Positions 32,055 to 63,322 of a stretch of DNA of 64,000 nucleotides are shown here, one piece after another. The translations under genes and the position numbers were made by a program. How positions within the stretch are numbered: the first letter of the stretch is position 1; every line of letters starts with the position of its first letter. The notes beneath the pieces were generated by a model. It saw only the letters and a list, made by a program, of their open reading frames with translations, did not search any database and was not told the origin of the DNA. The stretch is taken from assembly GCA_018436095.1 (NCBI GenBank), contig JAHDMJ010000013.1, forward strand, positions 124,001 through 188,000, read 5' to 3'. The stretch is from Clostridia bacterium. Lineage in GTDB: Bacteria; Bacillota; Peptococcia; DRI-13; UBA5745.

Positions 32055-32093
32055 ATGGCAAGCCTCCCAAAGGATTACATTTTAACGTCAGGA

Positions 32094-33065: not shown

Positions 33066-34044
33066 CTGAACGCTCCTTATCAATTGCATGGAAACAGGCA
33101 ATGCAGTGGCCATTTTCCATTTCGGTCAGGGGTGGAAGCTCCTGGGCACACCTTTCGTCGGCTTGGGGACAGCGCTGGTGAAAGGCGCAGCCTGCCGGCA
33201 AATTGGCGGGATCAGGCATCATGCCCTTGATGGGTTCAAGACGGTCCGTATCAATATCCAGCCTGGGCAGAGAGTTAAAGAGGCCGATAGTATAAGGATG
33301 CTGCATGTTCTTGTATACGGTGCGTACCGGGCCGGATTCCACAATGCGTCCGGCATACATGATCATGATACGGTCGCAGGTCTCGGACACAACGCCCAGG
33401 TCATGGGTAATCAGCAGCAAGGACATATTGAATTTTTCTCTTAGTTCAGCAATCAGCTCCAGAACCTGAGCCTGAATGGTAACATCCAAAGCGGAAGTGG
33501 GTTCGTCGGCGATCAGCAGCTTGGGATTACAGGCCAAGGCGATGGCAATCAGCACCCGCTGCTTCATACCGCCGGAAAACTGATGGGGATATTCGGCATA
33601 ACGCTCGCCGGGAATGCCCACCAGCTCCAGCATTTCCCTGGCCCGCAGGGCGGCTTCGCTTTTGCTCATATCATTATGAAGAAGAACCACCTCCATGATT
33701 TGATCGCCTACAGTCATCACGGGACTTAGGGAGGTCATGGGGTCCTGAAAAACCATGGACACATCGTTGCCCCGGATCTTGCGCATCTCTTTCTCAGAGG
33801 TCTCCATCAGATTCCGGCCGCCCAGCATAATCTTGCCGTTGGTGATTTTGCCGGGAGGCTCCGGAATCAGCTTCAAAATAGATAAAGCGGTAGTGGTTTT
33901 GCCGGCGCCGGTTTCACCCACCAGACCAACCCGCTCTCCTTTATTAATGGTGAAAGAAATGCCGTTTACTGCATTAACCGTCGATCTTCTCAGAATATAT
34001 TTAATTTCCAGATTTTCGATGGACAAAAGTTCGTTTTCTCGCAT
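33058..34044 (-). CDS. dppD: Oligopeptide/dipeptide ABC transporter ATPase (DppD)
   Basis: A 328-residue ATPase with Walker [10 protein letters not shown], signature [15 protein letters not shown], Walker B LLIADEPTSALD, and the C-terminal CAFHQRCPQADERC segment. It is the partner of DppF. GAGGGAAAAAAT precedes the ATG. Confidence 0.92.
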   Translation of the reverse strand: MRENELLSIENLEIKYILRRSTVNAVNGISFTINKGERVGLVGETGAGKTTTALSILKLIPEPPGKITNGKIMLGGRNLMETSEKEMRKIRGNDVSMVFQDPMTSLSPVMTVGDQIMEVVLLHNDMSKSEAALRAREMLELVGIPGERYAEYPHQFSGGMKQRVLIAIALACNPKLLIADEPTSALDVTIQAQVLELIAELREKFNMSLLLITHDLGVVSETCDRIMIMYAGRIVESGPVRTVYKNMQHPYTIGLFNSLPRLDIDTDRLEPIKGMMPDPANLPAGCAFHQRCPQADERCAQELPPLTEMENGHCIACFHAIDKERSDG

Positions 34045-34064
34045 ATTTTTTCCCTCACATTAGA

Positions 34065-34937
34065 TTAGTGGTTCAATCTGGGATCTAGTGCATCCCGCAG
34101 ACCGTCTCCTACGTAATTTAAGATATAGGTCAGGAAGACGATACATAGGCCGGGAATAATGGAGTAATACCAATAGGTACTCAGAAATTGGCGGCCCTGG
34201 GAGATCATGAGACCCCACTCAGGCTCGGGAGGCTGGATGCCCAGGCCAATATAAGACAGAGCAGCGGCCTCCAGGATAGAACCACCGGTGGAGAGGGTAA
34301 ACTGCACAATAATGGGAGCCAAAGAGTTGGGCAGGATATGATGCAGCAGGATCCGGCCGTCGCTGGCGCCTAAAGCGATAGAGGCTTCCACATATTCTTC
34401 GTTTCTCAAGGTCAGCACCTTTGCCCTGGCAATACGGGCAAAACTGGGGGTGTAGTACAAAATCAGGCAGATCAGCAGATTTTTCAGGCTGGTGCCCATA
34501 ATGATGACCAGACACATCAATAAAGGCATATCGGGAATATTGCTGAAGATTTCCAGGAAACGCATGATCGGGTTGTCCAGCTTAGGATAATAAGCTGCAA
34601 AAATGCCAAGGGGAATGCCCATCAGGCAGGCGCCGGTCATGGTGCCGAAGCCGATAATTACGGTATAACGGCTGCCGTAAATAATGCGGCTCAGAATATC
34701 CCGGCCAAACTGGTCGGTGCCGAAGGGATGCTGGGCATTAGGCGTAACCATGATGTTGTCGTAGTCCTGGGCAGCATAGTCATAAGGGGCAAGCACCGGA
34801 GCAAAGACAGCGATGAGAATTACCACGATGATCATCCAAAAGCTGAACATGGCGAATTTGTTTTCGCCTAGTTTCATCCAGACCAGTGCCCACTGACTGT
34901 TGCCATACTCTTTTTTGCGTTTGTAGTAGCCGCTCAT
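34065..34937 (-). CDS. dppC: Dipeptide ABC transporter permease (DppC)
   Basis: A 290-residue permease with the typical opening FGTDQFGRDILSRIIYGSRY and the EAA loop EASIALGASDGRILLHHILP. It has six membrane helices and pairs with DppB, overlapping its stop by 1-2 bases. Confidence 0.93.
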   Translation of the reverse strand: MSGYYKRKKEYGNSQWALVWMKLGENKFAMFSFWMIIVVILIAVFAPVLAPYDYAAQDYDNIMVTPNAQHPFGTDQFGRDILSRIIYGSRYTVIIGFGTMTGACLMGIPLGIFAAYYPKLDNPIMRFLEIFSNIPDMPLLMCLVIIMGTSLKNLLICLILYYTPSFARIARAKVLTLRNEEYVEASIALGASDGRILLHHILPNSLAPIIVQFTLSTGGSILEAAALSYIGLGIQPPEPEWGLMISQGRQFLSTYWYYSIIPGLCIVFLTYILNYVGDGLRDALDPRLNH

Positions 34938-35929
34938 CAGACATTTCCTCCTTCGGTTGCTTTAGCCACAAGTCCTGCCCTTTTTCTGGCTCTTTTGACG
35001 CCAAATCCATAAGTGGACTTGATCCGGGGATCAATGAAGGCATAAGCCATATCCGTCAAAAAGGTAACGATAGTACACATAAAGCAGATGAAGACGACGC
35101 CGCTTAACACCACAGGCGTATCCATAGTCTTTACGCCATCCAAAACGTAGTTGCCCAGGCCGGGGATGGCAAACACGGATTCCACCAGCACAGTGCCGCC
35201 CAGATAGCCGTTGATCCTGGTGCAGATAACCGTCAGAATGGGAATGAAAGCATTGCGCAGTCCGTGGGAAATGACGACTTTAAACTGAGTCTGGCCCTTG
35301 GCCCGGGCGGTTCGGACGTAATCCTGGCGGATGACTTCCAGCATGCTGGAACGGGTCATCCGGGTAATGGTGGCGCTGGCCTGCAGGCCGATAGTGGCTA
35401 CGGGTAAAATCCAGTGTTTAAGCGTATAGCTGCCGGTGGCCGGCAGCCAGCCCAGCTTCAAGGTGAAGATCAGGACGAAGAGCATGGCCAGCCAAAAAGA
35501 TGGGGCGGAGGCGCCAAACAGGGAGATAAAGGTCAGAATCCGGTCAAACAGGGAATATTGTTTGACCGCCGATACCACGCCGGCGATCAGGCCGATGATC
35601 GTACCCACAATAATACCCCAGACCGCAATGGTCATCGTCAGGGGCAGACGGGCAAACAGGGCAGGCGCAATAGGCTGCCGGGTTTTATAAGAATTGCCCA
35701 TATCCCCCTGAATCAGATTGCCGATATATCTGGTCAGCCGGACAATATAGGGGTCGTCCAGTTTTAATTCCTTGTGAATGGCCACGATGTTTTCCTCTGT
35801 GGCCCCTTCGCCCAAAACTACCAAAGCGGGATCGCCGGGCACAAACTCCATCAAGGTAAACAGGAAAACCACAGTGGCCAGCAGCGTAATAACCATGTAA
35901 ATCAAACGTTTGATTATATAGCGAAGCAT
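34937..35929 (-). CDS. dppB: Dipeptide ABC transporter permease (DppB)
   Basis: A 330-residue permease starting MLRYIIKRLIYMVITLL, with FVPGDPALVVLGEGAT, the EAA loop DYVRTARAKGQTQFKVVISH, and the C-terminal VESVFAIPGLGNYV block. It is preceded by a hairpin separating it from dppA; its ribosome site is weak. Confidence 0.93.
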   Translation of the reverse strand: MLRYIIKRLIYMVITLLATVVFLFTLMEFVPGDPALVVLGEGATEENIVAIHKELKLDDPYIVRLTRYIGNLIQGDMGNSYKTRQPIAPALFARLPLTMTIAVWGIIVGTIIGLIAGVVSAVKQYSLFDRILTFISLFGASAPSFWLAMLFVLIFTLKLGWLPATGSYTLKHWILPVATIGLQASATITRMTRSSMLEVIRQDYVRTARAKGQTQFKVVISHGLRNAFIPILTVICTRINGYLGGTVLVESVFAIPGLGNYVLDGVKTMDTPVVLSGVVFICFMCTIVTFLTDMAYAFIDPRIKSTYGFGVKRARKRAGLVAKATEGGNV

Positions 35930-36017
35930 ATTAGTAAAAATGAAATCAAAGCGATTTCATCCTTTCTCCTATTTTAGGCTAGAATAGGAAATCCAAGGTT
36001 CCCTGTGAAAGGCGATG

Positions 36018-36054
36018 AAGATGGGGAAGAGTAACTATTTACTTTCCCCATCTT
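36018..36054 (-). terminator. Hairpin between dppA and dppB
   Basis: An 11-bp perfect stem, AAGATGGGGAA / TTCCCCATCTT, with a 15-base loop and no strong T-run lies downstream of the binding-protein gene. It probably protects the dppA mRNA or attenuates read-through. Confidence 0.6.
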
Positions 36055-36104
36055 TCGTCTCAAATGCTTCCAAAATAAGTTGCGATATTAGTTTCCGTAC
36101 CGTA

Positions 36105-37715
36105 TTACTTGCTGATGAATTGGTAGTAAACCTGTTCGTAGTCGGTAGCCCAATAGAAGCCTTCCACATTGTCTCTGACGGCGGCTCCCAGAGCCTTATG
36201 CCATACGGGGATCATGGTATAGTCCTGCATCAGCATTTCACAGCACTCTTCCCAGATTTTGCCCCGGGCGGTGATATCTTCAGTAGCGGCGCCTTCGGAG
36301 TACTTTTTGAAGAAGTTCTGGTTGTCATAACCGATACGGGCCAGGGCGGCGGAGCCGGGCTGGAGCTGAGCCAGGAAACCGTCGGCTTCCATGGTCAGGG
36401 AAGTAAAGCCGTAGATGCAGATCTGATGGTTGCCCCGGCCCAGGTATTCCCGCATGGGGGCGGATTCCATCTTGTTGACCTTCAAGTTGATGCCGGCGGC
36501 GGCAACTTGAGCCTGGATAGCTTCGGCCATGTCGCAGCGCTGGGTATCGGTGCTTTCCACGGTGATCTCCAAATCAACGCCGTTGGGGAAGCCGGCTTCC
36601 GCCAGCAATTTCTTGGCAGTCTCCACATCATGGCCGGCGCCGTAATATTTCTGATAAGTGGCTTCATTGCGGCCCAGGATGTTGGGAGCAACCAAAGCGG
36701 AGGCGGGCTGGCCGAAATCGCCGTAAGTCAGCTTGACGGTAGCCGCCACGTTGACGGCCCGGGCAAAGGCCTCGCGAACCTTTATATTGTCCATGGGAGC
36801 CTTGGCGGTGTTCAGCAGCAGATAGGTGGTATTGGCACACATATGCTCATTCATGTGTACGCCGTCAATGGCGTCGATGGCGGCAAATTCCCGGGTGTTG
36901 GCGCCGATAACGATATCGTAGTTTAAGGTTTTGGCTTCGGTGGCGGCGGACTCATTGCTCTTGACTATCCGCATATCGATGTTTTTGACTTTGGGTTCGC
37001 CCTGGCGCCAGTAGTGTTCATTGGCAGTAAGCTGGACCATGTCGCCGGGGTTATATTTAACCAGCTTGTAGGGGCCGGTGCCGACGACGGAGGCGCTCAT
37101 CCAGTCGCCTTTGCCTTCTTCAAAGGCTTTCTTGGAGCCGATGGTGCATTGGCTGTTGCACAGGTGGGCAGCCAGAGTCATGCAGGGTTCTTTCAGGTTA
37201 AGGGCAACGGTGTAGGGATCAACGACCTCGGCATCGGTAATGACGTTATAGTGAGAATTGGGAAGGGCAATTTCCTTGGCATAGTTGATGGTCCAGGCCA
37301 CGTCTTCGGCAGTGAAATCAGAACCGTCACTGAACTTCACGTCGTCACGGAGGGTAATGACCATACGGGTGGGCGTTTCCCAGGTGTAGCCGGTAGCCAG
37401 CCAGGGGGTAACCTCACCTTCGGGGGTCATCATAAACAAGGTCTCATAGATCTGGCGGACAATACGATTGTAGCCTTGCTCGTCGTTGTTGCCGGGCTGG
37501 AATACCTCAGGGTCAAAGTTTTGGATAACCTTCAGGGTGTCGGGATCGCCGGTATCAAAGGAGAAGCCGCTTTGTTGGGTTTCGCCGCCGCCGGCAGGGG
37601 CAGTGGCTTCGGTACCGCCGCTGGTGCCGGTGCTGCCGCCGCAGCCGGCCAGCCCGAAAGTGATAAGACTGAGTAACATTGTCAGTGCCAGGGATAAAGA
37701 GACAAACTTTTTCAT
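36105..37715 (-). CDS. dppA: Dipeptide/oligopeptide-binding lipoprotein (SBP family 5)
   Basis: A 536-residue family 5 binding protein. The signal peptide ends in the lipobox GLAGCGG (Cys near residue 25) and is followed by a Gly/Thr/Ser linker. MVITLRDDVKFSDGSDFTAE is the family signature. I chose ATG 37715 (MKKFVSL) with GGAGAGAAGG upstream over 37736. It delivers peptides or related solutes to DppBC. It lies 66 bp after the PLP-lyase gene in the same direction. Confidence 0.93.
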   Translation of the reverse strand: MKKFVSLSLALTMLLSLITFGLAGCGGSTGTSGGTEATAPAGGGETQQSGFSFDTGDPDTLKVIQNFDPEVFQPGNNDEQGYNRIVRQIYETLFMMTPEGEVTPWLATGYTWETPTRMVITLRDDVKFSDGSDFTAEDVAWTINYAKEIALPNSHYNVITDAEVVDPYTVALNLKEPCMTLAAHLCNSQCTIGSKKAFEEGKGDWMSASVVGTGPYKLVKYNPGDMVQLTANEHYWRQGEPKVKNIDMRIVKSNESAATEAKTLNYDIVIGANTREFAAIDAIDGVHMNEHMCANTTYLLLNTAKAPMDNIKVREAFARAVNVAATVKLTYGDFGQPASALVAPNILGRNEATYQKYYGAGHDVETAKKLLAEAGFPNGVDLEITVESTDTQRCDMAEAIQAQVAAAGINLKVNKMESAPMREYLGRGNHQICIYGFTSLTMEADGFLAQLQPGSAALARIGYDNQNFFKKYSEGAATEDITARGKIWEECCEMLMQDYTMIPVWHKALGAAVRDNVEGFYWATDYEQVYYQFISK

Positions 37716-37781
37716 AAATCCTTCTCTCCTAACCATAATATATTTACAGCTTTACTAAGCTGTAGGGAAACAATGTCGGAA

Positions 37782-49192: not shown

Positions 49193-49258
49193 GGTGCGCC
49201 CGGTATTGGGGTACATTGACAGATAGCTTCGGGAGGGATATAATTGTTTATAGAATAC

Positions 49259-49277
49259 TGTTCTATAAAATAGAACA
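49259..49277. promoter_or_regulatory. Palindromic operator upstream of deacylase gene
   Basis: TGTTCTATAAAATAGAACA has 8-bp perfect arms and a 3-base centre. It lies 62 bp before the next ATG. Sites with the same TGTTCT-n7-AGAACA layout occur at 61773-61791 and, degenerate, at 60241-60259. Confidence 0.55.
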
Positions 49278-49338
49278 ATGTGGATTGAAATGAGCTGCAT
49301 AGTAAAAAAATTATTAATTAAAGGAAGGTGGCGAGAGG

Positions 49339-50292
49339 ATGAATAAACAAGAGCTGCGGGCCGGCGGCCTGGTGGCCAAGCCCGGCGAGAAGGTGCAAGG
49401 TTTTATGACGGTAACGGGTACCGATTACCAGATGCCTGCTACCCTGGTTAATGGGACCGGAGAAGGGAAAACTATTTTACTGACGGCGGGAATCCATGGC
49501 GGCGAATATCCCTGTATCCAGGCGGCTATCGAGTTGGGAAGGGAATTGCAGCCGGAAAAGGTAAAGGGTCAAATTATCATCGTGCACATAGTAAACCCGC
49601 CGGCTTTTAACGCCAGGCTTTCCTATATCAATCCCCTGGACGAAAAAAATATCAACCGCCTGTTTCCGGGAGACCCCAAGGGCACCATATCTCAGCAGAT
49701 TGCCTGGTTCATCACTCAGGAGCTCCAGGGCCAGGCCGATTTTTATGTGGACATGCATGGCGGAGATATCCATGAGGAATTACCGCCTTATGCCTATTAC
49801 CCCGGAGTAGCCTCAGCGGAAGTGGTGGCGGCATCCCGGGCTGTGGTGGTAAAGCTGGATGTGGATTTCATCGTTAAGTCCAGCGCCACCACCGGGGCCT
49901 ATAATTCCGCCGCTATCCGGGGGCTGCCTTGCATCCTGATGGAACGCGGCAGTTCGGGCCTTTGGAGCCCCCGGGAGGTTGAGCTGTACAAAAAAGACCT
50001 ATTAACGGTACTGGGAGTCCAGGGATTGATCGAAGGCTATGATTCGGTTCCGGATAAGGAATCGATGGAAATTACCAAAGCCGTCTACCTTGACTCCACC
50101 TGCAGCGGTTGCTGGTATCCGGCTGTAAAAGTAAAAGAAACGGTGAAAAAAGGGCAGAAAATCGGGGAGATCAGGGACTTTTTCGGAGAGGTTCTGGAAA
50201 CCTTCTACGCCGATTTTGACAGTATAATTTTGTTTGTCACCAGCTCACTGGCTATTGGCCAGGGGGACGCGATTATTACTTATGGGATTTAA
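49339..50292 (+). CDS. Succinylglutamate desuccinylase/aspartoacylase-family deacylase
   Basis: A 317-residue AstE/AspA-family zinc enzyme. TAGIHGGEYPCIQAA gives the zinc ligands His53 and Glu56; DFYVDMHGGDIHEELPPYAY supplies the third His. A C-terminal beta domain follows (VKKGQKIGEIRDFFGEVL). The family cleaves N-acyl amino acids or amidated carboxylates. It is convergent with, and related to, the protein at 50376. GGAAGGTGG precedes the ATG. The substrate cannot be read from the sequence. Confidence 0.85.
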   Translation: MNKQELRAGGLVAKPGEKVQGFMTVTGTDYQMPATLVNGTGEGKTILLTAGIHGGEYPCIQAAIELGRELQPEKVKGQIIIVHIVNPPAFNARLSYINPLDEKNINRLFPGDPKGTISQQIAWFITQELQGQADFYVDMHGGDIHEELPPYAYYPGVASAEVVAASRAVVVKLDVDFIVKSSATTGAYNSAAIRGLPCILMERGSSGLWSPREVELYKKDLLTVLGVQGLIEGYDSVPDKESMEITKAVYLDSTCSGCWYPAVKVKETVKKGQKIGEIRDFFGEVLETFYADFDSIILFVTSSLAIGQGDAIITYGI

Positions 50293-50317
50293 GCCTCTTT
50301 TGTAGTATAAAATTGCC

Positions 50318-50364
50318 CCCTTCAAAGTTTTCAGATGGTTTTGGTGTCTGTCTGCTTTGAAGGG
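50318..50364. terminator. Bidirectional hairpin between two deacylase genes
   Basis: CCCTTCAAAG and CTTTGAAGGG form a 10-bp stem with a 27-base loop between convergent genes; it probably terminates both. Confidence 0.6.
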
Positions 50365-50375
50365 AGCATAATAAT

Positions 50376-51392
50376 TTAATCCTGTACAATCTTACCGTAA
50401 ATGCAGCACCACTCTCTTGGCTGAATAACGGGAGGCGTCCAGGTTCCCACAACAATACCATCGTATGGAGCTATACATTCATCAATCTTTTCGCCAAAAA
50501 CATCGGTAACATAACCCAATACTTCACCCTTTTCAGCGGTTTCACCAAGATATTTTACCATATGATATTTGCCGCCGTGAGTATTGTGAAGATATTCAAC
50601 TGTTACATCAATAATATCCTCCCGGAATACAGGCTCGGGACCGTCTGTCATTTTAATGAGGTTCATCAGGTTTTTTATACCGTCATGACAAAGCCTGTAC
50701 ATTTCTTCCCTGTCTTTTCCGAACATTACATTACCGCCCATTTCAAGACAAATGTATGCGATACCGTTTTTGTCGGACATTGCCCGCATTGATTTGTCGC
50801 CGTCAATAGTTGTGCCGGGGTCATTTCTCCAAATGAAGGGAGTGTCGAAGCACCTTGCCATTTTAAGGGTAAGGTCGCCAAATTTTTTATCAAGGTGAGG
50901 AGTTGTGTAGCAAGCAACAGGGCTCAGCATAAGCTTATTGCCGCCGCTATGGAAGGTTAACCAGTAATCTGCGTGGCGTACGAAGTTTTTAACGTATTTA
51001 GCTAAAACAGTTGAGCTAATATTTCCGTTAACATCATCGCCGGGCATATTGCGGTTCATATCCGCTGCAGTATAGTCGATGGAGCTGGCCACACGCTTGC
51101 CGATGCTGTAGGCCTCAAGATTAAGATGAGGTACGCCAAGATAAACGCCTTTAAGCTTTTGGGGGTCAATCTCCTTGAATACGCGGGCGATGGCATCCGC
51201 TCCTTCAACCTCATCTCCATGAATACCGCCGTCCATCAGAAGCGTAGGTCCATCCATAGCTCCGACAGCAATAACGTAAGGTATTTTCATCATGGAACCG
51301 TCTGCTTTTAAGGCCACCTCCAGAAAACCTTTTGTCTTCGTACCCCGATGTTTAATCAGTTCTTCATAATCAAATTTTGCCAATTCAATCAT
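50376..51392 (-). CDS. Succinylglutamate desuccinylase/aspartoacylase-family deacylase, second copy
   Basis: A 338-residue paralogue with GGIHGDEVEGADAI (His58, Glu61), YTAADMNRNMPGDDV and a later LTFHSGGNKL histidine. The C-terminal beta domain carries AEKGEVLGYVTDVFGEKI. AGGAGG lies upstream of the ATG. It is divergent from the second dipeptide transporter operon and may act on what that system imports (inference). Confidence 0.85.
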   Translation of the reverse strand: MIELAKFDYEELIKHRGTKTKGFLEVALKADGSMMKIPYVIAVGAMDGPTLLMDGGIHGDEVEGADAIARVFKEIDPQKLKGVYLGVPHLNLEAYSIGKRVASSIDYTAADMNRNMPGDDVNGNISSTVLAKYVKNFVRHADYWLTFHSGGNKLMLSPVACYTTPHLDKKFGDLTLKMARCFDTPFIWRNDPGTTIDGDKSMRAMSDKNGIAYICLEMGGNVMFGKDREEMYRLCHDGIKNLMNLIKMTDGPEPVFREDIIDVTVEYLHNTHGGKYHMVKYLGETAEKGEVLGYVTDVFGEKIDECIAPYDGIVVGTWTPPVIQPREWCCIYGKIVQD

Positions 51393-51748
51393 TAATTAAT
51401 CCCTCCTGTAAGTTGGTTTGTTGCAATATTCAGAACTGCTGCCGTATCCAGCCCAAGATATAACTACATTTTAATAACGGAAGCTTTTATACTCAATATT
51501 CACAAGTCGTCAAATTCATATGCAATAGCACAAAATTGCCCTGTTTTTATCTTGGCCGGTGTTAAACTGACAATTGACATCTCTGAAACGATGTTATACA
51601 ATTTAGAAAGGGTTTCGTTCTTTTGGAACGATTTGGAGTTCGGACGGTATTCTATAGGGGAGGTTTAATATGTTTGCCGGTGAAATAATCAGAAGATTGC
51701 ATTAGGGGATGGCCAAATATCCAAACACTATTTTTAAGGAGGATTTCC
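51393..51748. promoter_or_regulatory. Divergent control region, deacylase-dppA2
   Basis: A 356-bp gap without a gene. It contains the dyad TCGTTC-TTTTG-GAACGA (51615-51631) and the motif GTATTCTATAG (51647-51657), which resembles the TTC-TATA-type dyads near the IclR gene. AAGGAGG precedes dppA2. Confidence 0.4.
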
Positions 51749-53371
51749 ATGAATCGATTTGCAAGGTTAATCTCGGTGACTCTGTGTGCTTTAATGCTTA
51801 TTAGCTTGGCTGCCTGCGGTTCAACAGATGCAAATACCGGGGGCACCACACCACCTGTCAATGACACTGAGGAAATCGTAGCGTTTGAGGGTCAAGAAAC
51901 ACCTACCCATTCATCAAAAGATTCGTTAATCATGGGCTATACGAGGGAGCCTGACACCATTGCTCCCGGCGGCGATTCAAAAACTAATGCTCAGATGGTA
52001 GTTGCTATACTTCACGACACCATTGTAGGAAAGGATCCGGCTGATCAATCAGTAATCGTGCCCTCGATTTCTGACACATGGGATTTCAGTGAAGACGGCA
52101 CAGAGATTACCTTCCATATTCGTGATGATATTAAGTTTCACGATGGCACAGCCTTAACCGTAGAGGACGTTCTATTTTCGCTGGATTATGCGACAAAGCA
52201 GGGGCTTAATTCCAGCGGCGCCAGTATTCTTAAAAGCTGGGAAGACATAGGGGACAATAAGATCAAGGTTACTCTTGCCTATCCCTACAAGCCAATTCTG
52301 CAAATTCTTGCCACACCTGGTTTCTCGATAATTTCTAAGGCCACCTACGAAAAATCCCAGGCCGAAGGCAAAAACTTTGGTATGATGGAAAATGGCACCG
52401 GTCCCTACAAGCTTATCAGCTGGACAACCGGTGACCGGATGGTCCTTGAGGCCAACAACAGCTGGCATAGAGGAGCTCCCGCAATTAAGAAGGTTGAAAT
52501 CAGGCTTTTATCCGATGAAACTTCCGGCGGCTTGATGATTGAAAATGGTGAGATTGACTTCTTTATTGGGATGAACAGCGCCGACCGTCCCCGTTTCCTC
52601 GCTAACGACAGTCTCGAGGTTATTAATGCTCCTTCAGCCGGTACCTACATTGTAACGATGAACCTTAAAGAAGGCCCCTTTGCTGACAACCTTGCCCTTC
52701 GTGAAGCAGTGGCCTATGCCATCAATCGTCAGGACATGCTTGACGGCGGCATGAACGGCGTCGGCGAAGTTACACCCGGACCGATTACGCCTGGCTATTT
52801 TGGCTTCGTTGAGGGTTTTGAGCCCTATCCCTACGACCCTGAAATGGCTAAAGCAAAGTTGGCGGAGGCTGGTTACCCCAACGGTATTGACGTAAGCTTT
52901 AAGACGGCCTCTGACTCCTGGTATTCCAATCCCGCCCAGATTGTTGTGGAGCAGCTTCGTCAGGTCGGCATAAGGTGTAAGCTTGAAATTATGGAACGGG
53001 CTCCTTACCTTAAAGAGGTTCAGGAAGACATGAACTATGAAATGTGCTACTACATGACATGGGGTGATTTCCCGGATGCAGACCCTGTTATGTGGGGCAA
53101 ATTCCACAGTGAGACCATTGGTAAACAGATGCAGAACTTTGCGGGGGTGGACAACCCGGAGGTTGATGCCCTTCTTCTCAAAGCCCGTACCTCTATCGAT
53201 GACAATGAACGCAAAGCGCTGTATGCCCAGTTGGCGGAAATGAATAAAGAGAATGTTTGGTATCTGATGATTCTTACGACGTACAACAGCATGGTTATCA
53301 ATAAAGACCTTAAAGGTGTTGAGCCGATTCCGGCCGGTTATTACAATCCCGCTTTCTATTATTGGGAATAG
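51749..53371 (+). CDS. dppA: Peptide-binding lipoprotein (SBP family 5), second system
   Basis: A 540-residue family 5 binding protein with a lipoprotein signal (LMLISLAACGS, Cys near residue 23). The family signature is EITFHIRDDIKFHDGTALTV. It heads dppA-B-C-D-F in one direction, with a hairpin before dppB. It differs clearly in sequence from the first DppA, so the solute probably differs. Confidence 0.93.
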   Translation: MNRFARLISVTLCALMLISLAACGSTDANTGGTTPPVNDTEEIVAFEGQETPTHSSKDSLIMGYTREPDTIAPGGDSKTNAQMVVAILHDTIVGKDPADQSVIVPSISDTWDFSEDGTEITFHIRDDIKFHDGTALTVEDVLFSLDYATKQGLNSSGASILKSWEDIGDNKIKVTLAYPYKPILQILATPGFSIISKATYEKSQAEGKNFGMMENGTGPYKLISWTTGDRMVLEANNSWHRGAPAIKKVEIRLLSDETSGGLMIENGEIDFFIGMNSADRPRFLANDSLEVINAPSAGTYIVTMNLKEGPFADNLALREAVAYAINRQDMLDGGMNGVGEVTPGPITPGYFGFVEGFEPYPYDPEMAKAKLAEAGYPNGIDVSFKTASDSWYSNPAQIVVEQLRQVGIRCKLEIMERAPYLKEVQEDMNYEMCYYMTWGDFPDADPVMWGKFHSETIGKQMQNFAGVDNPEVDALLLKARTSIDDNERKALYAQLAEMNKENVWYLMILTTYNSMVINKDLKGVEPIPAGYYNPAFYYWE

Positions 53372-53409
53372 ACCGATAGGGCAAAAGCCGCAAACTTCAA
53401 TAATCTTAG

Positions 53410-53449
53410 CGGGCAGGCAGCAATACTGCCTGCCCGTTTAATCTTTTTT
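53410..53449 (+). terminator. Attenuating terminator between dppA2 and dppB2
   Basis: CGGGCAGGCAG-CAATA-CTGCCTGCCCG is an 11-bp perfect stem, followed after a few bases by a T-run. It should stop most transcripts after dppA and allow partial read-through. Confidence 0.8.
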
Positions 53450-53526
53450 GTCCAGCGAAGGGCGAAAAATTTATAGGAGGGTTAAAGTGTTTTGAGATAA
53501 GGCCGGTATCGAAAGGACGATGGTGC

Positions 53527-54489
53527 ATGACAAAGTTTATTATAAAAAGACTATTGATGTTGATTCCTGTATTATTGGGCATATCCTTTATCCTTTTTTC
53601 TATAATGAACCTTACACCCGGCGACGCCGCCACATTGCTTCTTGGCGATAGCTCAAAGCCTGAGGCTGTAGAAATGCTTAGGGAAGAGCTGGGCTTAAAC
53701 GGAGGCTTTTTTGAACGCTATTTCAATTATATAGGAAATATTCTTCTTCGCGGTGATTTCGGGATATCCTACCGGACAAAAAATCCAGTGTTTACCGAAG
53801 TGTTTACACGATTTCATTATACTCTAAGGCTGGCATTTGCGGCTATTGCCATTTCATCTATCCTTGGAGTGCTCCTGGGTATTTTGTCAGCGATTAAGCA
53901 ATATACCGCTCCGGATAATATCATCACTGCTATTACACTGGGACTAACGTCTATGCCGGATTTTTGGCTGGGCCTAATGCTGATTATTTTATTCGCCGTT
54001 AAGTTAAGAATTCTCCCTATATCGGGGGCAACCTCATGGAAACATTTTATCTTGCCGGGCTTTACGGCAGCGGCAAACTATTTGGCAAATACCATACGCA
54101 TGTCACGGTCATCTATGCTGGAAGTATCGAGAATGGACTATATTCGTACGGCAAGAGCAAAGGGTGTCCCGGAAAAAGACGTCATATTTAAGCATACCTT
54201 CAAAAACGCTCTTATGCCCATCGTAACTCTTGTCGGCGTAAATATGGGCTGGCAGCTTGGCGGTACAATCATCATTGAGCAAATCTTCGGTATTCCGGGA
54301 ATAGGCTCATTGATGATCCAATCCATAAGGCTCAAGGATGTGCCGGTTGTAATTGGCTGTGTGATGTTTGTCGCCTTATTATCATCACTTATTAATCTTG
54401 CCACAGATATAATCTATATGTATATTGACCCTCGTCTTAGAGCGCAATTTGCTAAGGTTAAGAAGAAGGCGGTGACGGCAAATGATTAG
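53527..54489 (+). CDS. dppB: Peptide ABC transporter permease (DppB), second system
   Basis: A 320-residue permease with MNLTPGDAATLLLGDSS, the EAA loop DYIRTARAKGVPEKDVIFKH and IIEQIFGIPGIGSLM. Six helices. It overlaps dppC by 8 bp. Confidence 0.93.
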   Translation: MTKFIIKRLLMLIPVLLGISFILFSIMNLTPGDAATLLLGDSSKPEAVEMLREELGLNGGFFERYFNYIGNILLRGDFGISYRTKNPVFTEVFTRFHYTLRLAFAAIAISSILGVLLGILSAIKQYTAPDNIITAITLGLTSMPDFWLGLMLIILFAVKLRILPISGATSWKHFILPGFTAAANYLANTIRMSRSSMLEVSRMDYIRTARAKGVPEKDVIFKHTFKNALMPIVTLVGVNMGWQLGGTIIIEQIFGIPGIGSLMIQSIRLKDVPVVIGCVMFVALLSSLINLATDIIYMYIDPRLRAQFAKVKKKAVTAND

Positions 54490-55384
54490 GATCAATGCTA
54501 ATATAGATAAAAAATCCGGCGGGATAATAAAAAGAAGAAGCCAATTGGCGTCAATATGGTTTAGGTTCCGCAAAAATAAAATGGCTTTTCTGGGATTAAT
54601 CATGTTTTTAATACTGGTGGTAATTGCCTTTGCGGCGCCGCTGGTTCTTGATTATGAACGGGATATCATCAGCCAGAATATCTCCCAACGGTTTCTCGGC
54701 CCCAGCAGCCAGCATATTTTTGGCACAGACCAATTTGGACGGGATATCTTTAAGCGGATACTTTGGGGTTCCAGGCTGTCTATGTTTGTCGGCCTTGGTG
54801 TTGTCGGCATTTCTCTTGGCGGCGGCACCATTATCGGTTCTCTCTCCGGGTATTATGAAGGCAGTGTATTGGATAACGTGTTAATGCGTTTTTGCGATAT
54901 GTTTCTTGCTATACCGGGAACGCTTCTGGCTATCGCCCTGGTTTCCGGCTTTGGCAACAGTATTCCTAATCTTATGCTTGCTCTCGGCATAAGTACGATG
55001 CCAAAGATGTCCCGCATTGTAAGAGCGTCGGTCCTTTCCATAAAAAACCAAGAATTTGTAGAAGCGGCCATAAGCTGCGGCACCAGCGATTTCAGGATTA
55101 TGTTCAGGCATATTATTCCTAATGCGGTAGGGCCCATGATCGTTGAAGGCACTTTATCTGTGGCACGAAGCATTATTTCTATTGCTTCAATGAGCTTTAT
55201 TGGTCTTGGGGTACAGCCGCCCAATCCAGAATGGGGAGCAATGCTTTCGGAAGCAAAGGCACAGATGATCAACTATCCCTATCTTGTATATGCACCGGGT
55301 ATTGCCATCGTTCTTACTGTTATGTCACTAACCCTTATCGGAGACGGGCTGAGAGACGCCTTGGATCCCAAGATGAAGAATTAG
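54482..55384 (+). CDS. dppC: Peptide ABC transporter permease (DppC), second system
   Basis: A 300-residue permease with FGTDQFGRDIFKRILWGSRL, the EAA loop EAAISCGTSDFRIMFRHIIP and SFIGLGVQPPNPEWGAML. It is the partner of DppB. Confidence 0.93.
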   Translation: MIRINANIDKKSGGIIKRRSQLASIWFRFRKNKMAFLGLIMFLILVVIAFAAPLVLDYERDIISQNISQRFLGPSSQHIFGTDQFGRDIFKRILWGSRLSMFVGLGVVGISLGGGTIIGSLSGYYEGSVLDNVLMRFCDMFLAIPGTLLAIALVSGFGNSIPNLMLALGISTMPKMSRIVRASVLSIKNQEFVEAAISCGTSDFRIMFRHIIPNAVGPMIVEGTLSVARSIISIASMSFIGLGVQPPNPEWGAMLSEAKAQMINYPYLVYAPGIAIVLTVMSLTLIGDGLRDALDPKMKN

Positions 55385-55404
55385 TGAGGAAGGGAAGAAG
55401 AGCT

Positions 55405-56397
55405 GTGAAAAATGAAAAACTCTTAGAGATAAAAGATTTATATGCGCAGTACAATACAGATGAAGATATCGTATATGCGGTAAATGATCTTTCCCTTTCC
55501 TTAGATAGGGGCAGGACCTTGGGGCTGGTTGGTGAAACCGGCGCAGGTAAAACAACAACCTGTTTGAGTATACTGAGACTTCTGCCGGAGAGAATCGGGG
55601 AGATTTCAAAAGGTGAGATTATTTTTGACGGTATGGATATTCTGTCACTGTCTGAAGATGAGATGAGAAAAATCCGCGGCAAGGATATTGCAATGATCTT
55701 CCAGGACCCCTTATCAAGCCTTAATCCTGTATATACCATAGGCATGCAGATCGGAGAGGTTCTCAAATATCACGGAATTTATAAGGATGACCAAGCAATT
55801 GAGAATAGAGTTGAAGAAATGCTTGATCTGGTAGGCCTTCCTAAGGAAAGAAAAAATGACTACCCCCACCAGTTTTCCGGGGGAATGAAGCAAAGGGTTG
55901 TAATTGCCATGGCTCTTGCCTGCGAGCCTAAGCTTTTGCTGGCGGACGAACCCACAACAGCCCTTGATGTTACCATTCAGGCCCAGGTGTTGAAGCTGAT
56001 GAATGAGCTTAAAGAGCGCCTGCAAACCGCCATGATTCTTGTCACCCATGATCTGGGCATTGTGGCCGAAATCTGTGATGATGTGGCGGTAATGTATGCC
56101 GGCTCAATCATTGAAAAGGGAAGGATTGAGGATATTTTTGAAGGGCAGGTCCATCATCCCTATACAGTTGGCCTTTTTGCCTCAATACCCAACCTTAAGG
56201 TTAAAACCCGCCGTCTTAGCCCTATTGATGGTCTGATGCCCGATCCGGCTGATTTGCCAAAGGGATGTACATTTAATCCCCGTTGTCCCCACCGCATGGA
56301 GGTTTGTAAAACTGAGGAGCCTCCCTGTGTGATGATTGGTGAGGAGCATATGGTAAAATGTCATCTGTTTGCGTCAAAAGAGGGGGGAAGGCCATGA
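55405..56397 (+). CDS. dppD: Peptide ABC transporter ATPase (DppD), second system
   Basis: A 330-residue ATPase starting at GTG 55405 ([16 protein letters not shown]) with AAGGGAAGAAG upstream. Walker [10 protein letters not shown], signature [15 protein letters not shown], Walker [13 protein letters not shown], and a Cys-bearing C-terminus ([14 protein letters not shown]). Confidence 0.92.
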
Positions 56398-57341
56398 AAG
56401 ACTTAATTTATACAGAGGGTTTAAAAAAGTATTTTAAGACGCCGGCTGGCTTGCTGCACGCAGTTGATGACATCAACCTTAGAATCCCGGCAGGACAGAC
56501 CCTTGGCGTCGTAGGGGAATCCGGCTGCGGAAAATCCACTCTGGGGAGAACGATGATTCGCCTGATCGATTCCACTGAAGGCAAGGTTTTCTTTGACGGC
56601 GAGGATATTAATACATTTGATAAGAAGCAGCTTAAGCATTTTCGTAAAAACGCCCAGATGATTTTTCAGGACCCCTATTCATCCATAAACCCCCGTATGT
56701 CAGTATCTCAGATTATAGCGGAGCCCATGAAAGTATGTAAAACGGAAGCGAACAAAAAGGCCAGAGATGATAAAGTAAAGGAAATAATGAACACCGTTGG
56801 TCTAGCCCTTCGCTTTTATAATGCTTATCCCCATGAGTTAGACGGCGGAAGAAGACAGAGAATCGGCGTGGCAAGAGCCTTGGCCCTTGATCCAAGATTT
56901 GTAGTATGTGATGAACCTGTTTCTGCCCTTGACGTCTCCATCCAAGCCCAGATTCTCAATCTGCTGATGGATTTGCAGGAAACGAATAACTTGTCCTATA
57001 TGTTTATTACCCACGATCTTAGTGTTGTAAAGCATATTAGTCACAGCATCATGGTTATGTATCTGGGCGAGTGCATAGAGCAGGCGGATACCGATGAATT
57101 ATACGAGAATCCCTTGCATCCCTATACAAGGGCTTTGCTTAGCGCTATTCCTATTCCTGAGCTTAGGCGCGAAAAAAGAGCGGAGGTCATTCGGGGCGAG
57201 GTAAAAAGTCCGGTTAATCCCGCTCCCGGCTGCCGCTTTGCTCCCCGTTGCCCCCACGCAAAACCTGAATGTGTCGGTGAAAAAATCAATGAGGTACAGA
57301 TTACTCCGACTCATAAGGTGGCTTGCGTATTGTATTATTAG
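56394..57341 (+). CDS. dppF: Peptide ABC transporter ATPase (DppF), second system
   Basis: A 315-residue ATPase starting at ATG 56394, which overlaps the dppD stop (ATGA). Walker A GESGCGKST, signature LDGGRRQRIGVARAL, Walker B FVVCDEPVSALD, and end block CRFAPRCPHAKPEC. Confidence 0.92.
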   Translation: MKDLIYTEGLKKYFKTPAGLLHAVDDINLRIPAGQTLGVVGESGCGKSTLGRTMIRLIDSTEGKVFFDGEDINTFDKKQLKHFRKNAQMIFQDPYSSINPRMSVSQIIAEPMKVCKTEANKKARDDKVKEIMNTVGLALRFYNAYPHELDGGRRQRIGVARALALDPRFVVCDEPVSALDVSIQAQILNLLMDLQETNNLSYMFITHDLSVVKHISHSIMVMYLGECIEQADTDELYENPLHPYTRALLSAIPIPELRREKRAEVIRGEVKSPVNPAPGCRFAPRCPHAKPECVGEKINEVQITPTHKVACVLYY

Positions 57342-57412
57342 AGCAGATAGATTGTGATTAAATAGTTGTGCTAATGATGGCATGACTATTTTTCATAAAG
57401 GAGAGGCTGTAA

Positions 57413-58669
57413 ATGAAAGCGATAAAGGTAAAAAAGCTGTATAGCGGTCAAATTGGTTCAGCCCTGGATAATGCCGTAGCTGTAATTGACGGGGAGAAAA
57501 TAAGGGACGTATTGACTGATGAAGAGTTTAAGAAAACCGATAGATACAGCCAGGCTGACCTTATGGATTATTCCGACTATTATATGATGCCGGGATTGAT
57601 CGATTGCCATGTCCATCTTATGTTTCCGGGAAACGATTCCTGGGGCAATGTTTTTGGAGAATACATCGTAAGGGATTGGACAGAGGGCGAAATAAATATC
57701 ATGGCCTTCAGAAATGCCATGACGGCCCTTTCCCAGGGGGTCACCACTTTAAGGGATTGCGGAACCTTAAACTATGCGTCAATCAATGTAAAGCAGGCCA
57801 TTAAAAATCAGCATATTACAGGGCCTGATATTTTAAGCTGCGGAGCTCCTCTTACCTGTACCGGCGGCCACTGCCACTACGCAGGCGGAGAAGCTGACGG
57901 TCCCTGGGAAATTAGAAAGAAAATTCGGGAACAGCAAAAAGCCGGCGCCGACTTTGTTAAGGTTATGGGGACCTACGGCGGTACCATTGGCGTTACCAAA
58001 ACGGCTACTTTTAGCGATGAGGAATTACAAGCAGCCATTGATGAAGCCCATTTAAGAGGCATGAAAATTGCCGTACACAGTTGTACCTTTGAAATGACGG
58101 AAAAGCTTTCCCGGCTGGCTGTGGACACCATTGAGCATACCGTACTTTGCAGCGCCGATTGCTCAAAAAATAATTTGGATATAGAGCTTGTTCAGAGAAT
58201 TATTGATCATAATATATATGTAGACCATACGATTTGCTGTGTCAAAGGCGCTATTGCAATGTTCGGCCAGCTTGTTAAGGCGGGGGTTGCCACAGCAGAG
58301 GAAGAGGCCAGCTACTATTCTAATTTAAATTATGACCGGCTTACCGTAGAAAGCTTCAAGTTTCAAGCCGGCAAGGGAGTGCCCTATATAATCGGCACCG
58401 ATGCGGGATGGAGAGCGGCGGATTTTAAGGCCAGCTACTATGAAAACTTATACGTTATGGAAAGAAACGGCGCTGATTCTATGGAACTGATCCATGCTTC
58501 AACACTAAGGGGGGCAAAGGCTCTGGGCATTGATGAACATGTGGGATCTGTGGAAAAGGGCAAACAGGCTGATCTGCTGCTGTTAAAAAAAGACCCTGCC
58601 GCTGATATCGCAGAGGCCATAAAGAATCCTGAGATCGTCATAAAAAAAGGCGAAATGGTCAACAGATAG
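57413..58669 (+). CDS. Metal-dependent amidohydrolase (prolidase/imidazolonepropionase-like)
   Basis: A 418-residue amidohydrolase-superfamily protein. MPGLIDCHVHLMFPG gives metal ligands His66 and His68; ADFVKVMGTYGG holds the likely carboxylated Lys. AVHSCTFEM, DTIEHTVLC and GTDAGWRA supply the remaining His/Asp ligands. Related enzymes cleave Xaa-Pro/Xaa-Arg dipeptides or cyclic amides. Directly downstream of dppF with AAAGGAGAGG, it probably acts on the imported solute in the cytoplasm. Confidence 0.85.
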   Translation: MKAIKVKKLYSGQIGSALDNAVAVIDGEKIRDVLTDEEFKKTDRYSQADLMDYSDYYMMPGLIDCHVHLMFPGNDSWGNVFGEYIVRDWTEGEINIMAFRNAMTALSQGVTTLRDCGTLNYASINVKQAIKNQHITGPDILSCGAPLTCTGGHCHYAGGEADGPWEIRKKIREQQKAGADFVKVMGTYGGTIGVTKTATFSDEELQAAIDEAHLRGMKIAVHSCTFEMTEKLSRLAVDTIEHTVLCSADCSKNNLDIELVQRIIDHNIYVDHTICCVKGAIAMFGQLVKAGVATAEEEASYYSNLNYDRLTVESFKFQAGKGVPYIIGTDAGWRAADFKASYYENLYVMERNGADSMELIHASTLRGAKALGIDEHVGSVEKGKQADLLLLKKDPAADIAEAIKNPEIVIKKGEMVNR

Positions 58670-58692
58670 ATTAAGCTTTGGGCATACAAAAA

Positions 58693-58717
58693 ACAGGGCA
58701 GAAACAATCTGCCCTGT
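58693..58717. terminator. Bidirectional terminator
   Basis: ACAGGGCAGA-AACAA-TCTGCCCTGT, a 10-bp perfect stem between convergent genes, with an A-run on the left serving the reverse strand. Confidence 0.8.
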
Positions 58718-58737
58718 AAAGTATGGATTAGCCCCTG

Positions 58738-59781
58738 TTAAACCTCAGCGTATCTGATTTCGCAGATATCCGAAGCCTTATACGTCTTTGCCCCAGGCAT
58801 ACCGGGAATGATTTCGTCAGCCTTAGCGATGATTTCGTCACGGCTTAAGATCTCTGCGGGGGCTTCCAGCTTCTCTCTTGTTATGCCAACGCTTTCAAGC
58901 TCAACCCAGGCTCTTGGCGCAATATTGTCCAGGGCAATGGGCTTGCCGTAGGCTTTGGCAAGGGCAAGTACCGCAGGAGAGCAGCCGATGTCTTTGCCGG
59001 GAACAAGATCAATATCAAGGGCGCGAAGGGTGTATTCCGCAAGCACCGGCTTGGGAGCGCAGATAGCGGGGTAATCGCTCTTAACTGTTTTGGCGAATTC
59101 GCCGGAGTTATGAGCCGTCATACCTGCCTTATAGGAGCCCAGGTTGACTCCGCCAAAAATTCTGCCGTGGCGTTCGCTTACGACCATACCGATCCCCACG
59201 GAGACCTCAGGTCCGGCGACACCGATTATAACCTCACCGTCATTCATGATTTGATACATGCCAAAGTAAGGTGCAAGTATCTCTGTCATTTCAACCATGT
59301 TCATCACTTCAGAGCCGCAGTTGTTGTTGGCAATCCGGCCGGACATTGTCATGTTTTCATTGTTAGCGCCCCTGTTGCCCCTGTCCTCTTTGCTGGGACC
59401 CCGGTGAAGGGTTTTACCCTTGTAAGGCTCGGTGAGCCATAACCTCATGTGGGGTTCTTCCTCGATCATTTTATCGGAATAGGGCAGAGGACTGATATTC
59501 AGGTATCCATAGGAGGGGTTGATCAGGCCGTGATCAACGGAAGCCACGCCGATAACAGCTCCCGGCGCCACAATACCGTCACTTGTCACCGTAACAGCGT
59601 CTTCCATATCCATAATATCAATGGCGGCGCAATCATCACCAAGGTCTTTGCCCACAGCAAAGCATGCCTCAAGGTGTGTAAGCCCCGCAGCTTCAATATC
59701 TTTTTTTTCGATAAAAACCCAGTTTAACGGTACTATCCCATCAGCAGCTCCCTGTGGTACAATACGATATTTCAGCTTCAC
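58738..59781 (-). CDS. Unrecognised 347-residue protein
   Basis: I do not recognise a family. A soluble protein without signal peptide. Notable segments are PSYGYLNISPLPYSD, IANNNCGSEVMNMVEMTEIL (with one Cys), IGVAGPEVSVGIGMVVSE and GGVNLGSYKAGMTAHNSGEF, suggesting an alpha/beta enzyme with Gly-rich loops. The start is GTG 59781 with AGGAGG. It follows the 125-residue gene by 17 bp; the pair converges on the dpp2/amidohydrolase operon and is divergent from PucR, suggesting a role in using the same nitrogenous substrate. Confidence 0.65.
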   Translation of the reverse strand: MKLKYRIVPQGAADGIVPLNWVFIEKKDIEAAGLTHLEACFAVGKDLGDDCAAIDIMDMEDAVTVTSDGIVAPGAVIGVASVDHGLINPSYGYLNISPLPYSDKMIEEEPHMRLWLTEPYKGKTLHRGPSKEDRGNRGANNENMTMSGRIANNNCGSEVMNMVEMTEILAPYFGMYQIMNDGEVIIGVAGPEVSVGIGMVVSERHGRIFGGVNLGSYKAGMTAHNSGEFAKTVKSDYPAICAPKPVLAEYTLRALDIDLVPGKDIGCSPAVLALAKAYGKPIALDNIAPRAWVELESVGITREKLEAPAEILSRDEIIAKADEIIPGMPGAKTYKASDICEIRYAEV

Positions 59782-59798
59782 GTTATTTCCTCCTGCTA

Positions 59799-60176
59799 TT
59801 ATTTTTTCATATTACTGCGGCGGTCTATAATTTCTTTGACGCCAAAAAGATGAGTTTCAACTGTAGGAGCTGACAGCATCATGTTTTCAAGAATGACCTT
59901 TTTGCAGGTGCCGTCCTCCTGAATCCCTTTAATGACAACTGTATATAAGGTTTCCGGGTTGTCAGGTGTAAGTACAATTTCAACCTTTTTAACATCCTCG
60001 TCTTCAGTAATGTCCATTATTTCATCTTCGACCCGGCCAACCCTCAGTGAAGCAAGCTTCGCCGTCTTAACATTCTCCAGGCCGCTGATGGAAAATTCTG
60101 TTTCCGGGTTACGCTTTTTTGCGGCTGCCTCTGCTTTTGAGTAGAAATCCGGTAGTCTTGTGTGCATTAGCTTCAT
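59799..60176 (-). CDS. Unrecognised 125-residue protein
   Basis: No family recognised. Small, charged and soluble. The centre alternates strands and helices (FSISGLENVKTAKLASLRVG, then EIVLTPDNPETLYTVVIKG). AAAGGAG precedes the ATG. It forms a two-gene unit with the 347-residue gene, so the two may be subunits of one enzyme. There is a faint similarity of layout (ISGLE start, then VEI-DNPE) to the 119-residue protein at 31695, not enough to claim homology. Confidence 0.6.
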   Translation of the reverse strand: MKLMHTRLPDFYSKAEAAAKKRNPETEFSISGLENVKTAKLASLRVGRVEDEIMDITEDEDVKKVEIVLTPDNPETLYTVVIKGIQEDGTCKKVILENMMLSAPTVETHLFGVKEIIDRRSNMKK

Positions 60177-60240
60177 ATATAACGATACTCCTTTCGCATA
60201 TTTAACGATAGCTATATACTGACATTATAGAATGATGGAA

Positions 60241-60259
60241 TGTTCTTTTAAATAGAGAT
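60241..60259. promoter_or_regulatory. Degenerate TGTTCT-type palindrome
   Basis: TGTTCTTTTAAATAGAGAT keeps 10 of the 12 arm positions of the sites at 49259 and 61773. It lies between the divergent unknown pair and pucR. Confidence 0.35.
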
Positions 60260-60333
60260 ATGTCGCACAATTTTTGTTTGAATGCACATTTACCTATTAG
60301 CATGAGCCTAAGGATTAAAGGGGGGTGCAATAA

Positions 60334-61524
60334 ATGCCTTTAAGCGTAAAAAAATTAATGAGTCTTCTATCTCCGGCCTACAACATAAGGCTGGTAGCCG
60401 GAGCAGGCGGAATTGAGCAGACAAATATAGAATGGGTCTCAATTGTAGAAGATTATGATACGGAGAGATTCGGGAGACAGGGGCGTTTGGTGATAACCTC
60501 GGGGATGAAATATGTTAACGACGATATTGAAGGCGTTTTAACAGGATTGATTAACGGCCTGATTAAAGCGAAGGGCAAGGCTCTTATTATCAATACGGGG
60601 AAATATATAAAAGAAATACCCGGGAGCATTATTGACTACTGCGATCAAAAGAATCTGCCCTTATATACCATGTCCAGTGACTTTTATATGAATGATGTGG
60701 TAAAAGACATAGCGGAGCTAATTATTCGTGATGAAGAAAAATTTACCAACCTGGGCAATTATATGAGAAGCATCCTCTTTGATACAGAGAACTTATCGTC
60801 AAATATAAAAAAACTTGCTTTGTACAACTTATCAATCGATGATTTTTTCTGCCCTATGATTTTCAGCATAAAGAACGAGGACTATAAAGAAAATATAAAT
60901 ATAGTGATCAATAGGATCAATATGCTATGCAGAGAGTTTATGGAGCATCAATCGGCATATTTTAAATACGTGTGCTTTCAGTATGAAAATATGGTTATCG
61001 TTATTGTTATTTATAAGTACGAGGATACCTGTAATAAATATATTCAGCATATTCAATACAATATGCTGGACATGCTTTCAGGCAATAAAATGTACATTTA
61101 TATAGGTCATATGCAGGACAACATACATAGAATTTCCGATAATTTCAAACAGTTGCTGATGATAAAAAATGCCATAAAGCCTGAGAAACCGCTTATCATC
61201 TATGATCAGCTTATTTTCCAAAGATTGCTGACCAATGTATCAGACCCACAGTTTCTTACCGATTTATATAACAATAGCCTGGGTAAGCTTAAAAAATATG
61301 ATAAGGAAGCTCATACGGAGCTTGCCGCCTGCATAGCTGCCTACTTAGAGTGCGGAGCAAACATAAAAGAAACCTCAAACAAGCTCTATGTGCATAGAAA
61401 TACCATCAATAATTACTTTAAGAAAATAACCGGCATTACAGGAATCAATCCTCTTACCCTTGAAGGCAAGCTGATCTTTTTTGTAGCCATGAAAACGGAG
61501 GCGCTGTTTATAACGCCTCACTAG
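60334..61524 (+). CDS. PucR-family transcriptional regulator
   Basis: A 396-residue protein. The N-terminal PucR domain (about 5-125) opens LSVKKLMSLLSPAYNIRLVAG and has ERFGRQGRLVITSGMK. The C-terminal helix-turn-helix (about 335-390) reads NIKETSNKLYVHRNTINNYF. Family members control purine, amino-acid and other nitrogen catabolism. Its position suggests control of the adjacent unknown pair, the dpp2 operon, or the LarA-like operon. AAAGGGGGG precedes the ATG. Confidence 0.9.
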   Translation: MPLSVKKLMSLLSPAYNIRLVAGAGGIEQTNIEWVSIVEDYDTERFGRQGRLVITSGMKYVNDDIEGVLTGLINGLIKAKGKALIINTGKYIKEIPGSIIDYCDQKNLPLYTMSSDFYMNDVVKDIAELIIRDEEKFTNLGNYMRSILFDTENLSSNIKKLALYNLSIDDFFCPMIFSIKNEDYKENINIVINRINMLCREFMEHQSAYFKYVCFQYENMVIVIVIYKYEDTCNKYIQHIQYNMLDMLSGNKMYIYIGHMQDNIHRISDNFKQLLMIKNAIKPEKPLIIYDQLIFQRLLTNVSDPQFLTDLYNNSLGKLKKYDKEAHTELAACIAAYLECGANIKETSNKLYVHRNTINNYFKKITGITGINPLTLEGKLIFFVAMKTEALFITPH

Positions 61525-61618
61525 AAAATTTTTCCATGGTAGACGTACCAATAAAACCCTGCAGGGATTTGAAAAACAGAAAATCAAAAACTTTTTTCTA
61601 AACAAAAAGACAAAGTGA

Positions 61619-61807: not shown

Positions 61808-61935
61808 ATGAAATCACCTTTGCCTCCGATCCGGAGGTTAAGGTCAGGGCTAAAAAGTACGTGGCGATCTTCCTGGTTTGGGGCTTGGTTTGCTACACGG
61901 TGCAATATTTGGCGGGCTGGGGTGCGGTCCTGTAG
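61808..61935 (+). pseudogene. Small membrane-protein ORF without an in-frame start (possible frameshift)
   Basis: A strong ribosome site (AAAGGAGGT, 61792-61800) stands seven bases before ATG 61808. The frame that reads like protein is offset: from 61810 to the TAG at 61933-61935 it gives EITFASDPEVKVRAKKYVAI then FLVWGLVCYTVQYLAGW, a short soluble start plus one membrane helix. That frame has no ATG, GTG or TTG after its last upstream stop at 61765. A single-base change near 61808-61815 would restore it. Either a decayed or mis-sequenced small transporter-accessory protein, or coincidence. Confidence 0.4.
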
Positions 61936-61966
61936 AAAAGAATTGGTTCCTAAGGAGTGGCAAAGC

Positions 61967-63302: not shown

Positions 63303-63322
63303 GATTGGAAAGGGGGAAGCCC

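Follow-up and report, generated by a model that had tools for sequence, protein, structure and literature searches.

Enzymes of the LarA superfamily epimerise sugar acids and many 2-hydroxyacids, as set out in two papers (PMC7583248, PMC11770544). LarAH22 is not among the 13 enzymes tested in the first, where we equate the NCBI group number with that paper's numbering by assumption, and the passages covered by our literature search gave no assigned reaction for the nickel-pincer isomerases of group 22. In a window of 64,000 nucleotides, the whole stretch of clostridial DNA analysed here, we found two linked genes, c1 and c0, whose relatives elsewhere are regularly accompanied by such an isomerase. 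The proteins c1 (125 aa), c0 (347 aa), c4 (~120 aa), c3 (~180 aa) and c8 (~195 aa) form a conserved module, normally beside a LarA-type isomerase, c2. Unlike c2, these five proteins are none of LarA, LarB, LarC or LarE. We are highly confident that the module is a real, unnamed and conserved system, and that an earlier note on this DNA had caught two of its parts in an unusual place.

The c1–c0 gene pair

The gene for c0 lies at 58738..59781 on the minus strand (347 aa, GTG start), with the gene for c1 directly upstream on the same strand at 59799..60176 (125 aa, ATG start). The two are spaced by 17 nt, and a GGAG-type ribosome site can be read upstream of each start. Homologues of c0 with 76–82% identity are present in five other clostridial contigs, one contig holds a homologue of about 60%, and more distant ones across Bacillota share 40–60%. 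In all 22 c0 loci the two genes share a strand, with c1 upstream; they are adjacent in 20 of these loci, and two dehydrogenase genes, encoding an SDR and a zinc ADH, stand between them in the other two (L034 and L035). Because homologues exist and c1 keeps its place upstream of c0 throughout, c1 and c0 are taken as real, intact genes and not chance frames.

Both proteins fall outside the families of Pfam and NCBIfam. A scan of the two with c0 returned zero families at E<=1, and when each of the 20 aligned c0 sequences was scanned, any one family matched at most one of them (best E 0.013 in Pfam and 0.017 in NCBIfam). The same databases gave only sub-cut-off noise for c1 (PepSY, E=0.048; PRK15369, E=0.026). 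Weak matches of one c0 row to EutB and of the c1 profile to the DsbG-like structure 8pxe (E=0.019) were set aside. An AlphaFold2 model of c0 from seven close sequences (the window and L001–L006) reached a pLDDT of 45.5 and was not used. The c1 model reached 76.5, with a best Foldseek E of 0.064 in the PDB; its best VIA-align match, to histidine-kinase ATPase domains, had a Z of 6.9 (rmsd 4.1, 95 aligned), below the stated noise level of 8, and was not read as homology. The earlier note had reported two tightly linked genes here whose families it could not name, and this description holds: both ORFs are in place, neither protein exceeds any Pfam or NCBIfam cut-off, and the confident match to a known family that it had named as counting against its reading did not occur in our Pfam/NCBIfam scans and profile searches.

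Across 20 sequences, H111, H224, E109, E158, N152–N154, K234, K244 and R207 of c0 are invariant, and because so many invariant residues are polar, c0 is the best candidate for a catalytic subunit. Its motif NNN[CST][GA][ST]E is conserved across the alignment and contains an Asn-[Cys/Ser/Thr] pair that resembles what we take to be known self-cleaving sites. N154-[CST]155 would be the candidate cleavage site if the module were a pyruvoyl or self-cleaving enzyme with a mechanism akin to that of D-proline or glycine reductase. Sigma-54 regulators, which adjoin several module operons, fit this proposal, and the module is presumably like GrdE and PrdA in being anaerobic and in having several subunits, one of which conserves an Asn-[Cys/Ser/Thr] pair. 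However, the module shares neither a sequence nor a profile relation with the glycine and D-proline reductase proproteins GrdE and PrdA: no module protein has profile similarity to either, and hhalign gave c0 a probability of 0.1% for both, as against 99.5% for the GrdE–PrdA control. We regard a self-cleaving enzyme of this kind as very improbable.

Composition and distribution of the module

We mapped 22 c0 loci, namely the window, L001–L006 and L025–L039, of which L006, L038 and L039 are cut off by the end of a contig. By tblastn, c4 is present at the locus in 17 of them, c3 in 14, c8 in 9 (L030 and L031 carry a diverged form in addition) and c2 (~425 aa) in 17, and for each of these four the window adds one more, 27 kb away. 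Within their locus stretches, L003–L005 show only c1-c0-M20-c2, c4, c3 and c8 not being seen there, and c3 and c8 were not seen in L001 and L002.

The distribution among genomes gives a second line of evidence. The c0 profile matches 10 of 398 Bacillota genomes, the window's own included, and the c4 profile matches the identical ten; the c1 profile matches these ten together with G376, marginally (E=9.8e-4). Among 71 genomes searched, c8 is present in 11 of the 14 with c0 versus none of the 57 without it, and it was not found in the c0 genomes G362, G407 and G411. Quite apart from gene order, this shared distribution ties c0, c1, c4 and c8 together as one system. The window's own genome carries three copies each of c0, c1, c4 and c8, the c0 copies being on contigs C22 (the window), C7 and C31. 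The marginal c1 match (G376:C1:1281743-1281958) lies in a genome with neither a c0 nor a c4 match and is probably due to chance.

Copies of c4 and c8 that were scanned reached no Pfam or NCBIfam cut-off. Weak profile matches were set aside for both c8 (CoA transferase, E=0.019) and c4 (lysine aminomutase, E=0.056); c4 has a conserved C-terminal C..ERW. The one member with a recognisable domain is c3, which shares the MoCF domain of the MogA/MoaB/CinA/MoeA proteins (PF00994, 55.3 bits against a cut-off of 26.6 in the L028 copy) and whose profile, with the window copy included, matches Cnx1 at E=2.7e-4. Unlike those proteins, c3 stays below the cut-offs of the functional NCBIfam members and has invariant motifs of its own, GG.GGG and NGH. 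A second MogA/MoaB-like gene with the motif TNGGTG..RDNT lies beside c3 at L032:8062-8568 and L038:74-568. A description of the module was not found in the literature, which is weak evidence, as the search covered open-licence PMC text only.

The search for c0 covered Bacillota, plasmids and a pattern scan of genome contigs. A single c0 protein searched against 100 relatives matched seven, four of them new (G402, G403, G407 and G411), which brings the module genomes to 14 in total. The order that includes G250 has c0 matches in 3 of 22 genomes. The pattern scan yielded six c0 loci, from Clostridia, Eubacteriales and Ca. Neoanaerotignum, and the plasmids gave zero c0 matches. Because the distribution is patchy, it suggests horizontal spread. 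A match in G284 (L019, E=1.7e-4) fell on a radical-SAM/B12-binding protein, was lost under profile search and was dismissed as chance.

A split module in the window

In the congener G368 (L027) the genes run in the unbroken order dpp-c1-c0-c4-c3-c8-c2. The window has the same operon on its minus strand with one gap. It comprises c2, a LarA-like isomerase of NCBIfam group 22 (29303..30574), homologues of c8 (30578..31171, 197 aa), c3 (31168..31710, 180 aa, with the MogA/CinA/MoeA-like MoCF domain) and c4 (31695..32054, 119 aa), the c8 and c4 homologues being outside known families, and, preceding c4 and oriented like it, a dpp-type ABC transporter (32094..37736) syntenic with that of G368. At the junction (32046..32094) there are 49 bp here versus 1.5 kb with c1–c0 in G368. 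The window's c1 and c0 are instead in an island of 12.4 kb (49193..61618), together with two deacylases, a dpp operon, an amidohydrolase and a PucR-type regulator (60334..61524, plus strand) that is divergent from c1–c0, as is its relative in L001–L005. The island is absent from G368, where alignment shows that it is an insertion relative to an interval of 24 bp.

The c4, c3, c8 and c2 proteins of the window are 85, 68, 80 and 90% identical to those of G368, whereas its c0 and c1 are 76–81% and 68–89% identical to those of L001–L005 and only 57–58% to those of G368. Together, the identities and the alignment indicate that the operon's own c1–c0 is gone and that the island holds a pair from another lineage. 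Since the operon at 29–32 kb is left without its own pair, and since the genome has equal numbers of c0, c1, c4 and c8, the pair in the window probably acts in trans with the c4-c3-c8-c2 set 27 kb away. A parallel to this split is G403, which has a lone c1–c0 pair (L036) besides a full set (L037).

The earlier note had read the peptide-use genes, amidohydrolase, deacylases and PucR around the pair as a clue to its substrate, and a purely local role has to be weighed. The pair would then be an enzyme for a nitrogen compound or an N-acyl amino acid, the link to LarA being a matter for other copies. The two AstE/AspA-like deacylases, the amidohydrolase, the dpp operon and PucR of the island fit such a role, as do the M20 peptidase that in L001–L005 separates c0 from c4 or c2 and the second pair without the remaining module genes in L036. 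However, the co-occurrence check that the note had proposed, once run, found the amidohydrolase and the two deacylases in none of the 21 other c0 loci; the PucR-type regulator is present in 6 of 22, window included. The closest relatives of the window pair, L001–L005 (76–82%), keep c2 in the same operon, and the genome's three c0 and three c4 leave the c4 set of the window as the counterpart of the window pair. We consider a local enzyme quite unlikely, and these results do not support the surroundings as a guide to the substrate; the pair itself lies in an island that the congener lacks. The "clean two-gene unit" of the note stands locally and fails as a description of the whole, since c4, c3, c8 and a LarA-type isomerase recur with the pair. 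When a gene has moved in an island, its local neighbours, here peptidases and PucR, can mislead. The window also encodes two PLP enzymes of Cys/Met metabolism (37782-38987 and 44151-45365), and members of their cluster adjoin L002, L027 and L032 as well.

Association with LarA-type isomerases

The window c2 scores 477.6 bits against the curated cut-off of 400 for NF052515, the group-22 model. All 53 group-22 sequences compared keep its H95, H159, K172 and H188 unchanged, and hhalign places these residues at the His/Lys positions of a canonical LarA-type protein encoded at 22773-24071 of the window. We take these positions to be a pair of catalytic His residues, the Lys that bears the NPN and the His that serves as Ni ligand. 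With the LarA superfamily, c2 thus shares both the score and the His/His/Lys/His set, and it is a candidate nickel-pincer (NPN) 2-hydroxyacid isomerase. The canonical LarA-type gene directly follows one for an IlvD/Edd-type dehydratase (21094-22776), both named by eye or alignment, and 21094-24071 is likely a sugar-acid epimerase/dehydratase pair. A second group-22 gene lies at 61808-63223, with 87% identity to L088 of G368 and about 40% or less to the module-linked ones; behind it come genes that look by eye like those of a 2-oxoacid ferredoxin oxidoreductase and continue past the window edge (61808-63999).

Group-22 c2 accompanies 18 of the 22 c0 loci, the split window counted. At L025, the copy on contig C7, a LarAH6-like, malate-racemase-like enzyme takes the place of group 22 in the operon. 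When 54 group-22 sequences are placed on a tree, the 18 that are module-linked require 4 changes (no fewer than 3 of them forced), compared with 15.3 when the labels are shuffled, and none of 500 shuffles was as low as observed. Transporters at the module loci vary as well (TRAP, dpp, DcuC, DUF819 and SSF). As the module is paired with several group-22 lineages and one LarAH6-like enzyme, it is the set of five proteins that seems to stay constant, with isomerases and transporters that look exchangeable.

LarB, LarC and LarE are the NPN partners, and one module operon is joined to them: in G403 it is followed by TRAP genes, larE, larB and larC, with a NadD-like gene nearby. This neighbourhood, the MoCF-type (MogA/CinA-like) domain of c3 and the presence of the module beside LarA-type genes of several lineages would suit a machine of five proteins that loads or repairs the nucleotide cofactor of the isomerase, in which c3 would bind a nucleotide-like cofactor. 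Against it, most group-22 genes have no module beside them (36 of the 54 sequences in the tree), and of the 29 genomes in which group 22 exceeds the cut-off, 17 have zero c0 match. In hhalign comparisons none of the five families showed a relation to LarB, LarC or LarE, and in 4 of 14 module genomes (G225, G297, which is 77% complete, G368 and G402) LarE and LarC do not exceed the cut-off. A loading or repair role is in our judgement unlikely. The window's own genome, G000, has both LarE (251.9 bits) and LarC (220.3 bits). Six of the 29 genomes that carry an above-cut-off group-22 gene have neither a LarE nor a LarC match above cut-off (G007, G021, G049, G225, G297 and G368), five of these being at least 93% complete, and G016 has LarC only. 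Group-22 enzymes in genomes without LarE and LarC would either obtain their cofactor by another route, or part of group 22 would do without NPN.

Discussion

With the module as the unit, we put it at about even that c1 and c0 are subunits of a five-protein catabolic system working with a LarA-type NPN isomerase, with c0 likely catalytic. The earlier proposal that the two genes encode two subunits of a new enzyme is to this extent supported as probable. To judge from gene context, a transporter that differs from operon to operon would import a 2-hydroxy or polyhydroxy (sugar) acid. The LarA-type enzyme, by its family and conserved residues, would invert C2, so that either stereoisomer could enter, and the five-protein complex, probably with c0 as its catalytic part, may then transform the correct stereoisomer.

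This third step would take the place that IlvD/Edd dehydratases or GlcD/GlcF-type oxidases hold elsewhere. Such enzymes adjoin group-22 isomerases where the module is absent: IlvD or GlcD/GlcF-type genes are present in 2 of 22 c0 loci versus 19 of 36 group-22 loci without c0 (Fisher p=7.5e-4, with related loci counted as independent). Unlike them, the module proteins match none of these families, and the equivalence is drawn from gene exchange only. Two c0 loci also contain an OtnK-type kinase and PdxA, which we take to represent a four-carbon acid-sugar route. The peptidases, deacylases and PucR that flank the pair in the window point instead to a nitrogen compound and run counter to a hydroxy-acid reading. 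Also against the joint system are the four module genomes in which LarE and LarC stay below cut-off, whose c2 would be NPN enzymes only tentatively, and the loci and genomes in which c4, c3 or c8 were not seen.

We infer that hydroxy or sugar acids of one C2 configuration may be what the five proteins process, and we hold this type of chemistry tentatively, as somewhat less probable than the existence of a joint catabolic system. With similar reserve, the module can be seen as a possible new enzyme class with several subunits, assembled from four families that Pfam and NCBIfam do not model and a repurposed MogA/CinA-type domain. It would carry out a common step on hydroxy or sugar acids of a single C2 configuration and would have repeatedly recruited different nickel-pincer isomerases and transporters for new substrates.

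For the group-22 isomerases, a fixed partner of five proteins with a clean phyletic signature offers a handle on their role. For the bacteria that carry it, the module predicts an undescribed enzyme in the anaerobic breakdown of hydroxy acids or sugar acids.
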